Assembly: GCF_019063845.1 (NCBI RefSeq)
Contig: NZ_CP077683.1
Coordinates: 3,030,501-3,094,500, forward strand
Source of the DNA: Geomonas subterranea
GTDB taxonomy: Bacteria; Desulfobacterota; Desulfuromonadia; Geobacterales; Geobacteraceae
Direction: 5' to 3'
Length of the DNA stretch: 64,000 nt
Made by a program: the position numbers and the translations under genes
Shown here: positions 36,427 through 46,702 of the stretch, in pieces
Position numbering within the stretch: position 1 is the first letter of the stretch
Layout: each line of letters opens with the position of its first letter
Notes under the pieces: model-generated
What the model was told of the DNA's origin: nothing
Database searches by the model: none
Seen by the model: only the letters and a program-made list of their open reading frames with translations

Positions 36427-36545
36427 ACATCCACTCTCCCCTGGGAGAGGACAGGGTGAGGGTGTCGGCAGCTGCATTTTTTTCGCTTCGTGGCGACGCC
36501 CTCACCCGCCCGTTGGGCACCCTCTCCCCGAGGGAGAGGGGACTC
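36427..36545. repeat. Composite palindromic intergenic element
   Basis: Two arms, each palindromic on its own (CTCTCCC-ctg-GGGAGAG near 36430 and CCCTCTCCCC-GAGGGAGAGG near 36520), flank AGGGTGAGGG and GCCCTCACCC, which pair with each other. The whole can form a large cruciform or hairpin and resembles a REP/BIME-type element. It contains no supported gene. Confidence 0.6.
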
Positions 36546-36546
36546 G

Positions 36547-36581
36547 CCGAAGAGGACTAGCCGAAGAGGACTAGCCGAAGA
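36547..36581 (+). repeat. Tandem 14-bp repeat
   Basis: CCGAAGAGGACTAG occurs twice in tandem (36547-36560 and 36561-36574) followed by a half copy CCGAAGA, at the end of the palindromic element. Confidence 0.8.
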
Positions 36582-42471: not shown

Positions 42472-44034
42472 ATGCGTCTGAACATCCTGATCACCGCCTC
42501 AGAAGCGGTCCCCTTCGCGAAGGAAGGGGGCTTGGCCGACGTGGTCGGCGCCCTCCCCAAGTACCTCGAAGCGCGCGGTCACGACGTCCGCGTGGTGATG
42601 CCCCGCTACTACAAGGTGGACCGCGAGCGCTACCAGCTGCGCCAACTCCCCGGCGTCCTGGTCGTTCCCATGGGGATCATCGGCAACATGTACTGTGGCG
42701 TGTACCAGGGGATCATGCCCGGCTCGAACGTCCCGATCTACTTCCTTGAGCATGAAGATTTCTACGGGCGCGATTCTCTCTACGAGAGAGACAACCAGGG
42801 GTACCTCGACAACGACAACCGCTTCATCTTCCTTTCCAAGGCGAGCCTCGAGCTCTGCAAGATGCTCCAGTTCCCCCCCGACCTGGTGCACGCGCACGAC
42901 TGGCACACTGCTGCCGTGCCGGTGCTGATGAATACCTGGTACCGCCACGACCACCACCTCGCGCAGGCCGCCTCGCTGCTCACCATTCACAACATGCAGC
43001 ACCAGGGGAGCTTCTACGAGGGGGCCATGGATGTTCTCGGCATCGGCTGGCACCACTTCACCTTCCTGGAACTGGAGATGGACAACCAGGTGAACCTGCT
43101 CAAGGGGGGGATCTACCACGCCACCATGCTGAACACGGTCAGCGAAGGTTACGCGAGAGAGATCCAGACCGCCGAGTACGGCTGGGGACTGGAAGGAGTG
43201 GTGCGCCAGCGCTCCGAGACACTCTCCGGCATCCTGAACGGCGTCGACTACCACGAATGGAATCCGGAAGAGGACCGCTTCCTCCCCGCGAACTTCAGCG
43301 CCCGGGACATGGGCGGCAAGGGCGTTTGCAAGAGGGAGTTGCAGCGCTCGCTCGGGCTTCCCGAGCGCGAGGACGTGCCGCTGATCGGCATGGTGTCACG
43401 CCTGGTGAAACAGAAGGGGATCGACGTGTTGGCGCAGGCACTGCCGCGACTTCTCGAACTCGACATCCAACTGGTTCTTCTCGGTGCGGGCGAGCCTTGG
43501 GCCCACTTCTATTTCGGCGGTGTTGCGGCGGACCGGCCCGATCGCTTCGCCTGCCGCATCGGCTACGACAACAGCCTGGCCCACCGCATCGAGGCCGGTT
43601 GCGATTTCTTCCTGATGCCTTCGGCTTTCGAACCCTGCGGCTTGAACCAGATGTACAGCATGCGCTACGGCACCCTTCCCATCGTGCGCGCGACCGGCGG
43701 ACTGGACGACTCCGTGCAGAACTTCAACGCCGCAGAGCGCACCGGGGACGGCTTCAAGTTTTGGAACCCGGACGCCGGCGCGCTTTTCGACACGGTCGGC
43801 TGGGCAGTCCACACCTGGTATCACGATCCGGAAGGGATAGCGGCGTTGCGCCAAAACGCGATGGCAAAACGTTTCACCTGGGAGAATGCCGCCGAGAAGT
43901 ACGAGCGGCTCTATCTGGAGGGAATAAAGAGGAAACTTGGCGAAGAGAAGTTGAGGCAGGCTATGGCAGAGAGAACTCCCGCAAGGGAAAAAGCATCGAG
44001 GGAGAAAAACGAAGGATACCAGCCCCAGGCGTAG
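42472..44034 (+). CDS. glgA: Glycogen synthase GlgA
   Basis: GlgA adds glucose from ADP-glucose to growing glycogen chains. The 520-residue protein is a GT5 glycosyltransferase with the ADP-glucose-binding motif KEGGLADVVGALP near the N-terminus, VHAHDWHTAAVP, LTIHNMQHQGSF, and the C-terminal GMVSRLVKQKGIDVL, MPSAFEPCGLNQMYSMRYG and VRATGGLDDSV. The C-terminal 40 residues are a charged Lys/Glu extension (MAERTPAREKASREK). No other glg gene lies nearby. AGGAG precedes the ATG. Confidence 0.95.
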   Translation: MRLNILITASEAVPFAKEGGLADVVGALPKYLEARGHDVRVVMPRYYKVDRERYQLRQLPGVLVVPMGIIGNMYCGVYQGIMPGSNVPIYFLEHEDFYGRDSLYERDNQGYLDNDNRFIFLSKASLELCKMLQFPPDLVHAHDWHTAAVPVLMNTWYRHDHHLAQAASLLTIHNMQHQGSFYEGAMDVLGIGWHHFTFLELEMDNQVNLLKGGIYHATMLNTVSEGYAREIQTAEYGWGLEGVVRQRSETLSGILNGVDYHEWNPEEDRFLPANFSARDMGGKGVCKRELQRSLGLPEREDVPLIGMVSRLVKQKGIDVLAQALPRLLELDIQLVLLGAGEPWAHFYFGGVAADRPDRFACRIGYDNSLAHRIEAGCDFFLMPSAFEPCGLNQMYSMRYGTLPIVRATGGLDDSVQNFNAAERTGDGFKFWNPDAGALFDTVGWAVHTWYHDPEGIAALRQNAMAKRFTWENAAEKYERLYLEGIKRKLGEEKLRQAMAERTPAREKASREKNEGYQPQA

Positions 44035-44236: not shown

Positions 44237-44490
44237 AAATAGTGCAATCCCAACTGGTTTTGCACTATTCCAAAGAAAATAGTGCAAACTAGTCCCGAGA
44301 TCTCACTATTTCCAGCGGAATAGTGTTATTCCGGCTCAGGTTTGCACTATTCCACACGAAACAGTGCTATTCCGGACCAAGTTTGCACTATTCCAAACCA
44401 AATAGTGCTATTTCATCCAGGATTGTACTATTTCCGTCAGAATAGTGGAATTTCGTCCAGGATTGCACTATTCCGAACGAAACAGTACAA
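44237..44490. repeat. Tandem array of 41-bp dyad repeats
   Basis: Seven half-sites of type A (AATAGTG or AACAGTG/A) start at 44238, 44278, 44319, 44360, 44401, 44441 and 44481. Six half-sites of type B (CACTATT, once TACTATT) start at 44263, 44304, 44345, 44386, 44426 and 44466. A and B are reverse complements, so each 40-41-bp unit is a dyad and neighbouring units form a second dyad; TTGCACTATT-N8-AATAGTGCAA at 44261-44288 is perfect. Spacer bases vary. There is no gene inside, no CRISPR architecture and no cas gene. Confidence 0.9.
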
Positions 44491-44530: not shown

Positions 44531-44566
44531 AAAAAAGGCGCCCCGGGAAATCCGGGACGCCTTTTT
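44531..44566. terminator. Intrinsic terminator between the array and hppA
   Basis: AAAAAAGGCG-CCCGG-N5-CCGGG-CGCCTTTTT is symmetrical with A/T runs at both ends. It is at the 3' end of hppA (minus) and can also stop plus-strand transcription from the array. Confidence 0.88.
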
Positions 44567-44587: not shown

Positions 44588-46630
44588 CTACATCTTGTTC
44601 AACAGCGGAACGATGAGCAGCGACACGATGTTGATGATCTTGATCATCGGGTTGACCGCCGGGCCGGCGGTGTCCTTGTACGGATCGCCTACGGTGTCGC
44701 CGGTAACGGCAGCCTTGTGGGCTTCGCTACCCTTGCCGCCGTGGTAGCCGTCCTCGATGTACTTCTTCGCGTTGTCCCAAGCGCCGCCGCCGGTGGTCAT
44801 GGAGATGGCCACGAAGATACCGGTGACGATGGAGCCGACGATGACGCCACCCAGAGCCTTGGGGCCGAGGGTGAAGCCGACGACGATAGGGGCGAGGATC
44901 GGGATGAGGCCCGGGATAACCATCTCTTTGAGAGCGGTCTTGGTCACGATGTCGACGCAGGCGGCGTAGTCCGGCTTGCCGGTACCTTCCATGATGCCTG
45001 CGATAGTGCGGAACTGGCGACGGACTTCGTCGACGACCGCGCCGCCTGCTTTACCGACGGCTTCCATGCACATAGCGGCGAAGTAGTAGGGGAGCATGCC
45101 GCCTATGAAGAGACCGACGATGATCTTCGGATCGGAGAGGGAGAAGGTCTTGTCGGCGATGGTCAGCTCCTGGACATAGGAGGTGAACAGGATGATGGCC
45201 GCGAGACCTGCGGAGCCGATGGCGTAGCCCTTGGTGACCGCCTTGGTGGTGTTGCCGACCGCGTCGAGCGGGTCGGTGACGGCGCGAACGGAATCGTCCA
45301 GCTCGGCCATCTCGGCGATGCCGCCGGCGTTGTCGGTGATCGGGCCGTAGGCGTCCATGGCGACGACGATGCCGGTCAGGGAGAGCATGGAGACAGCGGC
45401 GATGGCGATGCCGTACACACCGGCGCAGTTGGATGCGACGATGATGCCCGCGGAGATGACGATGACCGGAAGAGCGGTGGACTTCATGGAGATGCCCAGG
45501 CCGGCGATGATGTTGGTGGCGTGGCCGGTCTTGGAAGCCTCGGCGATGTGCTTGACCGGGGCGAACTCGGTGGAGGTGTAGTACTCGGTGATCCAGAAGA
45601 TGGCACCGGTAACGACCAGACCGACGATGGCGGAGATGAAGATGTTGGTCGAGGAGATGACCGCACCGTTGGCCTCGGCGAGGCCCTGCGGGAACATCTG
45701 CACGGTGACGAAGTAGAAGGCGATGCAGGCGATCACGCCGGAGGCGATGAGACCCTTGTAGAGAGCGCCCATGATCTTGCCGGAGGCGCCCAGCTTGACG
45801 AAGTAGGTGCCGATGATGGAGGCGATGATGGAGATGCCGCCCAGGATCAGCGGGTAGCTGACGGCGCCCGGGTTGCCGAAGCTGATTGCGCCCAGCAGCA
45901 TGGCGGCGATCAGGGTAACGGCGTAGGTCTCGAAGAGGTCGGCAGCCATGCCGGCGCAGTCGCCGACGTTGTCGCCGACGTTGTCAGCGATAACTGCCGG
46001 GTTGCGGGGGTCGTCTTCAGGGATACCCGCTTCGACCTTGCCCACCAGGTCGGCGCCGACGTCAGCGCCCTTGGTGAAGATGCCGCCACCCAGACGGGCG
46101 AAGATGGAAATCAGCGAACCGCCGAAGCCGAGGCCGACCAGCTGGCTGACAACGTCCTTCACCGGAGCGCCCGGCATGACGGCCTGCAGGAACATGTAGT
46201 AGCCAGCCACGCCCAGAAGGCCCAGACCGACGACCAGCATGCCGGTGATGGCGCCGCCCTTGAAAGCGACGTTGAGAGCCTTGTGGATGCCGGACTTGGC
46301 AGCCTCGGTGGTCCTCACGTTGGCGCGTACCGAGACGAACATCCCGATGAAGCCGGTGAGGCCGGAGAAGACTGCACCGACCAGGAAGCCGACTGCGGTC
46401 ATCCAGCCAAGGGAGGCGAAGAGAGCCACGAACATGGCAACGCCCACCACCGCGATGATGGTGTACTGACGCTTCATGTAGGCGCCGGCGCCTTCCTGGA
46501 TCGCGGCTGCGATCTGCTTCATCCGCTCGTTACCCTGGGGCAGCCCCAGGATCCACTGGGCCGAGATGAGGCCGTAGGCGACTGCTGCCGCGGCACAGAC
46601 CAGGGCGAAGACTACTGCATACTGTTCCAT
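44588..46630 (-). CDS. hppA: Membrane-bound proton-translocating pyrophosphatase
   Basis: HppA hydrolyses pyrophosphate and pumps protons (or sodium in some members) across the inner membrane. The 680-residue protein has about 16 membrane helices and the conserved catalytic motifs: [23 protein letters not shown] style loop with [11 protein letters not shown], then [19 protein letters not shown], and the late [19 protein letters not shown]. The [10 protein letters not shown] segment has Lys at the position that in potassium-dependent members is Ala, so this enzyme is probably of the potassium-independent proton-pumping type. AGGAGG precedes the ATG at 46630. Confidence 0.95.
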
Positions 46631-46702
46631 TGAAAAAATTCCTCCTATTTGGATATGCCTCAAAAAAGGCGTGCCTTCCAACACAGTCATAAAAACGGGT
46701 GA

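Follow-up and report, generated by a model that had tools for sequence, protein, structure and literature searches.

What purpose does a row of short, alternately oriented half-sites serve between two convergent genes of Geomonas subterranea, and does it belong to any known class of repeat? We addressed this question in the window, by which we mean the whole stretch of 64 kb (64,000 nucleotides) that was analysed, and in the genomes of its relatives.

Anatomy of the array

An earlier note, made from the sequence alone, had described seven AATAGTG-type and six CACTATT-type half-sites alternating at 40 or 41 bp between glgA and hppA. The positions of the half-sites confirmed this description. 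The 13 half-sites alternated strictly over 44238-44487, the forward ones starting at 44238, 44278, 44319, 44360 (1 mismatch), 44401, 44441, and 44481 (2 mismatches), and the reverse ones at 44263, 44304, 44345, 44386, 44426 (1 mismatch), and 44466. The names glgA, hppA, trpE, ruvA/ruvB, and htpG are presumptive throughout, being those of the earlier note or assigned from sequence. The features of the locus are listed below.

42472..44034, + strand: upstream neighbour, which we take to be the glycogen synthase gene glgA (name from the earlier note and general sequence knowledge)
44238..44487, no strand assigned: whole array, 13 cores 20-21 bp apart, orientation alternating, double unit 40-41 bp
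44238..44244, + strand: half-site AATAGTG, forward 1
44263..44284, no strand assigned: dyad 1, CACTATT-N8-AATAGTG, perfect (this and the following dyads from a dyad pattern search)
44304..44325, no strand assigned: dyad 2, perfect
44345..44366, no strand assigned: dyad 3, 1 mismatch (AACAGTG)
44386..44407, no strand assigned: dyad 4, perfect
44426..44447, no strand assigned: dyad 5, 1 mismatch (TACTATT)
44466..44487, no strand assigned: dyad 6, 2 mismatches (AACAGTA)
44532..44566, no strand assigned: terminator-like hairpin beside hppA (AAAAAGGCGCCCCGG..CCGGGACGCCTTTTT); a similar hairpin stands in the orthologous gap of relatives
44588..46690, - strand: downstream, convergent neighbour, presumably the H+-pyrophosphatase gene hppA (name from the earlier note and general sequence knowledge)

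The period had been read as 41 bp, and same-type half-sites did recur every 40-41 bp, with an inner gap of 8 bp throughout and an outer gap of 18-19 bp. The true step was about 20.25 bp: 12-bp cores (AATAGTGNNATT and its complement) started 20 or 21 bp apart, about two helical turns, so that the 41-bp unit consists of two units of opposite orientation. The further claim that all same-type sites face one side of the helix held only approximately, since a mean step of 20.25 bp as against 21 bp (2 x 10.5) lets the sites drift.

The array contained 10 of the 12 perfect half-sites of the window and 12 of its 54 half-sites with at most one mismatch. The pattern CACTATT-N8-AATAGTG (at most 3 mismatches) matched the window seven times, six of them within the array, whereas 100 shuffled sequences averaged 0.45 matches and never gave more than 3. 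The array was the sole period-40 row that TRF listed in the window, and its GC content was 42% versus 62% for the window. CGTC, which like GTAG can tag one end of a REP/BIME palindrome, occurred in it twice, on a single strand and not once per unit. A CRISPR array consists of near-identical repeats of 20-50 bp with unique spacers of similar length between them; 7-bp half-sites with alternating gaps of 8 and 18-19 bp do not have this layout. Elsewhere in the window, at 36540-36581, a 14-bp repeat (GGACTAGCCGAAGA) occurred three times in nearly perfect form.

The glgA-hppA gap in related genomes

The array is housed in a gap of 553 bp between the convergent ends of glgA (44034) and hppA (44588). 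We compared this gap across 19 Geomonas genomes. The array was present in nine of them (the own genome G000, G013, G017, G002, G001, G009, G008, G006, and, in weak form, G014), and a remnant was found in G012. For G004, G007, and G015, the stretch examined showed no hppA. The earlier note had named absence from close relatives with synteny kept, joined to a lack of bound protein or transcript, as evidence against its reading, and such absence was found at glgA-hppA in 6/19 genomes (G003, G005, G010, G011, G016, and G018), where hppA is still next to glgA; the array type persists elsewhere. The arrayless gaps of these six relatives indicate that the glgA-hppA copy is dispensable, and the presence and absence across the 19 genomes indicate that the gap is free to lose or gain the array. 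The gap of G018 (L055) carried another repeat instead, the copies of which, judged by eye, contain CTCTCCC/GGGAGAG inverted repeats. Stretches resembling this element were also seen in the gap of G013 and at L288:17-390.

Distribution and dialects

Outside the window, the own genome held one further locus of the same sequence type, the window dialect, at G000:C1:4008976-4009241 (locus B). Counting arrays per genome, as the earlier note had proposed, thus placed this dialect at few loci, two in the own genome and 1-4 per genome in relatives among the matches listed. BLASTN against 58 relatives gave nine matching genomes including the own one, all of the same genus. The exact pattern was found in five stretches of an 84,980-species collection that may omit the own genome or near ones; four lay on contigs of three Geomonas species, and the fifth, a single match in a Streptococcus MAG, we take as chance. 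No exact match was found in viral contigs. With a sequence-only model of the window dialect, at least 12 of the 19 Geomonas genomes gave matches at E<=0.1. The palindromic dialect, modelled separately, was detected in 10 of the 19 at E<=0.01, which added G015 and a weak match in G004. A dialect-free pattern was also run across the order; on visual inspection, none of the genomes from other genera exceeded its reversed-pattern control in the way that G001 and G009 did.

The core varied by genome. It was AATAGTGCAATT-like in G000, G013, G002, G017 (glg locus), G003, and G010, AATAGTGCTATT in G006, and of the form AACAGTG in G011, and cores AATAAGCTTATT and AATAGTGTTATT alternated in G001 and partly in G009. 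In both G001 and G009, three unlinked loci (the glg gap, a locus of the P0001 gene family described below, and the gap before htpG) shared a common dialect with unlike spacers, and G009 had an additional P0001 locus carrying the other dialect. The arrays before htpG in these two genomes are further orphans. Orphan arrays of period 21 and 42 in other dialects, detected by autocorrelation only, lay near ruvB in G011 (L192 near 4521) and near trpE in G001 (L190 near 1761).

We also compared glg-locus arrays with the B/C arrays of their own genomes, using the six of the nine glg-locus arrays that have a same-genome B/C array. The best cosine was 0.63 versus 0.46 in permuted genomes (p=0.005; 6 arrays). 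The glg arrays of G000, G013, and G014 were closer to their orthologs than to arrays of their own genome, so the within-genome likeness is suggestive only.

Arrays accompany a gene family

The second array of the own genome lies directly downstream of a gene for a 217-aa protein, P0001. Homologs of P0001 were found in all 19 Geomonas members and in 22 of 141 genomes of the order, with 228 matches over these 22 genomes. Each genus member had 7-14 matches (the own genome 11), and outside the genus G024 had 18, G023 two, and G020 one. In a phylum sample of 395 genomes, the own genome alone matched at E<=1e-10. Neither P0001 nor a distant homolog had a match on plasmids, and P0001 had none on phages. 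Within the 64-kb window, no degraded P0001 gene was detected among stop-to-stop segments of at least 25 aa.

To score arrays, the best 160-bp self-match at lags of 15-65 was determined in the 900 bp downstream of each P0001 homolog, and the threshold was set at 0.54, slightly higher than the best score (0.53) among 388 random pieces of the window. The 91 downstream regions scored were those of the best-scoring homologs and of further fetched ones out of the 228, and were not a random draw. The threshold was reached by 49 of the 91 regions. In 47 of these, the lag differed by at most 1.6 from 20.4, 40.8, or 61.2, and the remaining two entries stand for a single G023 locus entered twice (L264 = L307), with a lag of 63 (3x21) and a match of 0.96. 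Of 253 control genes, seven reached 0.54 and two did so at such a lag, both of them being the window array approached from its two sides. The difference was large (Fisher p~7e-30), although the loci are related by descent and p values therefore overstate their independence. The remaining 44 regions, counting the double-entered lag-63 locus, were below threshold or off step. Irrespective of score, the best lag belonged to the set of 20.4 multiples in 74/91 P0001 regions versus 46/253 controls.

The downstream arrays of P0001 paralogs had very unlike sequences and a common step of 20-21 or 40-42 bp. In the own genome, six of nine examined P0001 loci had a downstream array and a seventh had an upstream one; upstream arrays were also present at L089 and L298. 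A 21-bp array with TTGATCGGGTTTGGTTTTCTC units was seen at L276:18717-19027, just upstream of the own-genome P0001 gene of L206. In G024, which belongs to another genus, 4 of 14 P0001 loci passed the array test, so that the link between gene and array is weaker outside Geomonas. In 464 kb of the own genome (20 spaced 20-kb stretches and the window), 16 stretches reached 0.54 and four did so at an array lag. Of these four, one is the window array, another adjoins a P0001 gene, and the last two fall within ORFs of 981 and 883 codons. Of the P0001-family genes examined in Geomonas, about half or more have such an array beside them, and, less regularly, arrays also accompany genes of this family in two other genera of Geobacteraceae. 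The window array, which has no P0001-family gene adjacent, is an orphan of this gene-array family with its near-constant step of 20-21 bp.

P0001 matched no Pfam or NCBIfam family above cut-off, with fn3 sub-threshold. In the AlphaFold model, a helical domain (mean pLDDT 94 when modelled alone) is followed by a sandwich; Foldseek matched the predicted sandwich to FN3 domains, and the top 50 whole-protein matches were mostly FN3-type. The helical domain had no solved structural match at E<=0.001, and the median pI was 6.0 for this domain and 7.1 for the full proteins. A hairpin stood between the P0001 gene and the array in the loci read by eye. We considered whether P0001 regulates its own gene through an upstream site; own-array motifs were found there at 7/50 loci, a non-significant excess (p=0.11).

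Within the flanks seen, which extended to about 1.5 kb at most, no neighbouring ORF family occurred at more than 8 of the 91 P0001 loci. The commonest neighbours were an Mrr-type endonuclease and one small-protein family, at 8/91 loci each, and the endonuclease was for this reason rejected as a constant partner. Mrr-type endonucleases were observed downstream of several P0001 arrays (L033, L039, L193, L087, L099), at L039 with topoisomerase-like zinc ribbons. An Eco57I-type methylase was present at L035, and the surroundings of these loci were island-like.

Dissecting constraint on the arrays

The earlier note had suggested that selection acts on the half-sites and that the row is no plain copy array. 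This was supported by an uneven distribution of mismatches over unit columns, with p<0.05 in seven of nine arrays; G001 was strongest (p<0.0005), L301 and L205 showed no such unevenness, and the window array was borderline (p=0.049, 6 units). Moreover, inner core positions covaried as dyads (109/192 versus 84.9+-5.4 when shuffled, p=0.0003). Constrained cores with symmetry inside each core favour a multi-site binding array, which was one of the roles first suggested, as the best reading.

Another of those roles was an RNA with alternative hairpins. A transcribed RNA or an extruded single strand would form tandem hairpins with 8-nt loops, acting as a terminator, a stabiliser, or a small RNA at the 3' ends of glgA and hppA. 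As a single strand, the array had a folding energy much lower than that of shuffled sequences (z -9.63). Each unit is a dyad, the gene ends are convergent, and one unit (44385-44408) passed a terminator scan. However, a row of dyads is expected to fold strongly, and the comparison of 49 CACTATT-N8-AATAGTG dyads from eight arrays went the other way: 32 stem positions had changed, 10 of these still paired with G-U counted, and none was a two-sided compensation. Pairing was the same as after shuffling of stem partners (321 versus 321.8), and pairing between adjacent cores in palindromic dialects did not improve on that of cores in shuffled order. A perfect palindrome such as AATAAGCTTATT has no loop inside the core, and the window had no Rfam match at gathering score. 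Despite the strong fold, we set the hairpin reading aside for want of compensatory changes and consider it quite improbable.

A neutral minisatellite, built by slippage or unequal crossing-over in tolerant gaps and taking its step from the duplication mechanism, would explain the presence and absence of the array at glgA-hppA and the nearly identical copies in arrays L093, L097, L098, and L200 (match 0.97-0.98). The available text of a report on Geobacter bemidjiensis likewise describes that genome as rich in multicopy direct repeats (PMC2996986). Against this stand the single step of 20-21 bp in unrelated sequences, mostly beside one gene family, the concentration of divergence in spacers, and the dyad covariation inside cores; we judge a neutral origin unlikely.

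The constancy of the step with free sequence is also what would be expected if ~20.5-bp pieces were duplicated by a fixed-step process tied to P0001 genes, a molecular ruler of which the arrays would be the record. Arrays adjoin P0001 genes downstream and sometimes upstream (L089, L298, L276), and some arrays look fresh, others decayed. However, the short flanks showed no nuclease, polymerase, or integrase at more than 8/91 loci, and the cores appear constrained after copying; we consider array writing very unlikely.

If, instead, the arrays are binding sites, the relation between array and protein bears on their specificity. Among 62 arrays compared, those of distant paralogs had a median cosine of 0.05-0.07, and those whose proteins had a normalised score of at least 0.8 agreed (0.47). 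Arrays of distant paralogs in the same genome were unlike one another (median cosine 0.06-0.07), and the single close same-genome pair gave 0.34. Exceptions were L087 and L098, with similar proteins and unlike arrays, and L215 and L219, with the reverse. This correlation between dialect and protein could be plain shared inheritance.

Comparison with known systems

REP/BIME elements, as described in the available text of PMC3733652, are likewise extragenic palindromes of alternating orientation, often at gene 3' ends. In addition, a Y1_Tnp gene, of a kind absent from the window gap, is situated ~240 bp away from the locus-B array. This gene (L030:6511-7509), which also has a sub-threshold DnaA_C match, has 18 relatives in the genus (E<=1e-60). 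Of these 18, seven have a P0001 homolog no more than 11 kb away, and two (L105 of the own genome and L122 of G002) have an array of at least 0.54 within the ~1.5 kb seen, the one at L122 being a 21-bp array. A miniature mobile palindrome moved by a RAYT-like transposase would account for these features. Yet the window dialect is not dispersed, the step is near-fixed at 20 bp, the GTAG tag that marks REP/BIME ends is absent from both strands of the array, and the ~1.5 kb surrounding transposase relatives of 93-94% in G001 and G011 is free of arrays. No transposase was among the 14 commonest neighbour families listed for the short flanks of the 91 P0001 loci. We consider a REP/BIME-type origin very unlikely, though slightly less so in view of the transposases near P0001 genes. 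The proximity of seven of 18 transposases to P0001 genes is, in our judgement, closer than chance would give for scattered genes, and could reflect shared islands or a real partnership; given the nearby Y1 transposase family, P0001 loci may be mobile.

The earlier note had also named a partition- or origin-like locus. Iterons of plasmid origins, like the arrays, are tandem sites of ~20 bp that adjoin a gene and follow one another at about two helical turns. They differ in that P0001 has no Rep match (no Rep family appeared in Pfam/NCBIfam scans of six P0001 proteins), cores of the window dialect are alternating dyads, chromosomal copies are many, and the window array has no DnaA box. Plasmid ParR/parC centromeres of type II partition (the 20-bp repeats of pSK41, parC of C. 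perfringens) share with the arrays a row of short repeats (10-20 bp) beside a small gene. ParMRC has a ParM/ParA-type ATPase beside its centromere; none was among the 14 neighbour families listed at the 91 P0001 loci (flanks ~1.5 kb or less), and the neighbours in the window are glgA and hppA. The ParR adaptor is a ribbon-helix-helix protein, whereas P0001 is modelled as a helical bundle plus FN3, and P0001 arrays are chromosomal, mostly downstream, with 7-14 paralogs in each genus member. Membership in either class thus found no support: no Rep match was obtained, and no ATPase gene recurred within the short flanks. The arrays may nevertheless act in the manner of ParR/parC. In that system, according to PMC9426499, paralogous adaptor-array pairs are orthogonal, and a given ParR binds no arrays other than those of its own family.

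In 2010, G. bemidjiensis (G014 here) was reported to carry direct repeats of 6 to 42 nt between its genes (PMC2996986). These probably include some of the present arrays, and the repeats themselves have therefore been published in part. The available text of that report gives no common step, gene association, or function. In the open-licence PMC literature, we recognised no report of the shared step, nor of any link between such arrays and a gene family.

A model for the arrays

We infer the binding, the binder, and the effect set out here, and give about an even chance to the reading that the arrays are rows of dimeric sites, that each array type has a cognate binder, that the P0001 protein is a candidate binder or partner, and that the glgA-hppA array is an orphan trans site. 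Each 12-bp core would be a double-stranded DNA site for a dimeric protein, and neighbouring dimers, about two helical turns apart, would bind jointly as a filament or patch, as ParR coats parC. With its own cognate binder for each array type, the paralogous arrays of one genome would operate without cross-talk. The arrays at glgA-hppA and before htpG would then be trans sites of the locus-B type, and the P0001 protein, encoded beside arrays, would be the first candidate for the binder or its partner. Among anchoring, segregation or domain boundary, silencing, and titration, we favour as the likeliest effect a nucleoprotein structure that serves as an anchor or boundary where two genes end convergently. 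Counting against this explanation, the helical domain of P0001 is not basic and lacks a solved structural match, and G002 and G008 retain an array at the glg locus although neither has a close relative of the locus-B protein (their best homologs reach 32-33% and 37-38%).

A bolder version, which we put forward tentatively and hold to be distinctly less probable, is that Geomonas chromosomes contain some ten address systems, mutually orthogonal and each made up of a protein and its array. Every P0001-type protein would recognise its own array of ~20.5-bp step and assemble there into a nucleoprotein row, orphans would be trans docking points, and the whole would be a motor-less, multi-copy counterpart of ParR/parC with an FN3 adaptor.

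A near-fixed step of 20-21 bp, free in sequence and tied to one uncharacterised gene family, is not explained by any family searched. If the arrays are written by a fixed-step process, a new mutational mechanism would be at work. If they are coated by cognate proteins, they would be natural orthogonal DNA address tags within one chromosome and, if this is true, would be useful for studies of chromosome organisation and of protein-site co-evolution.
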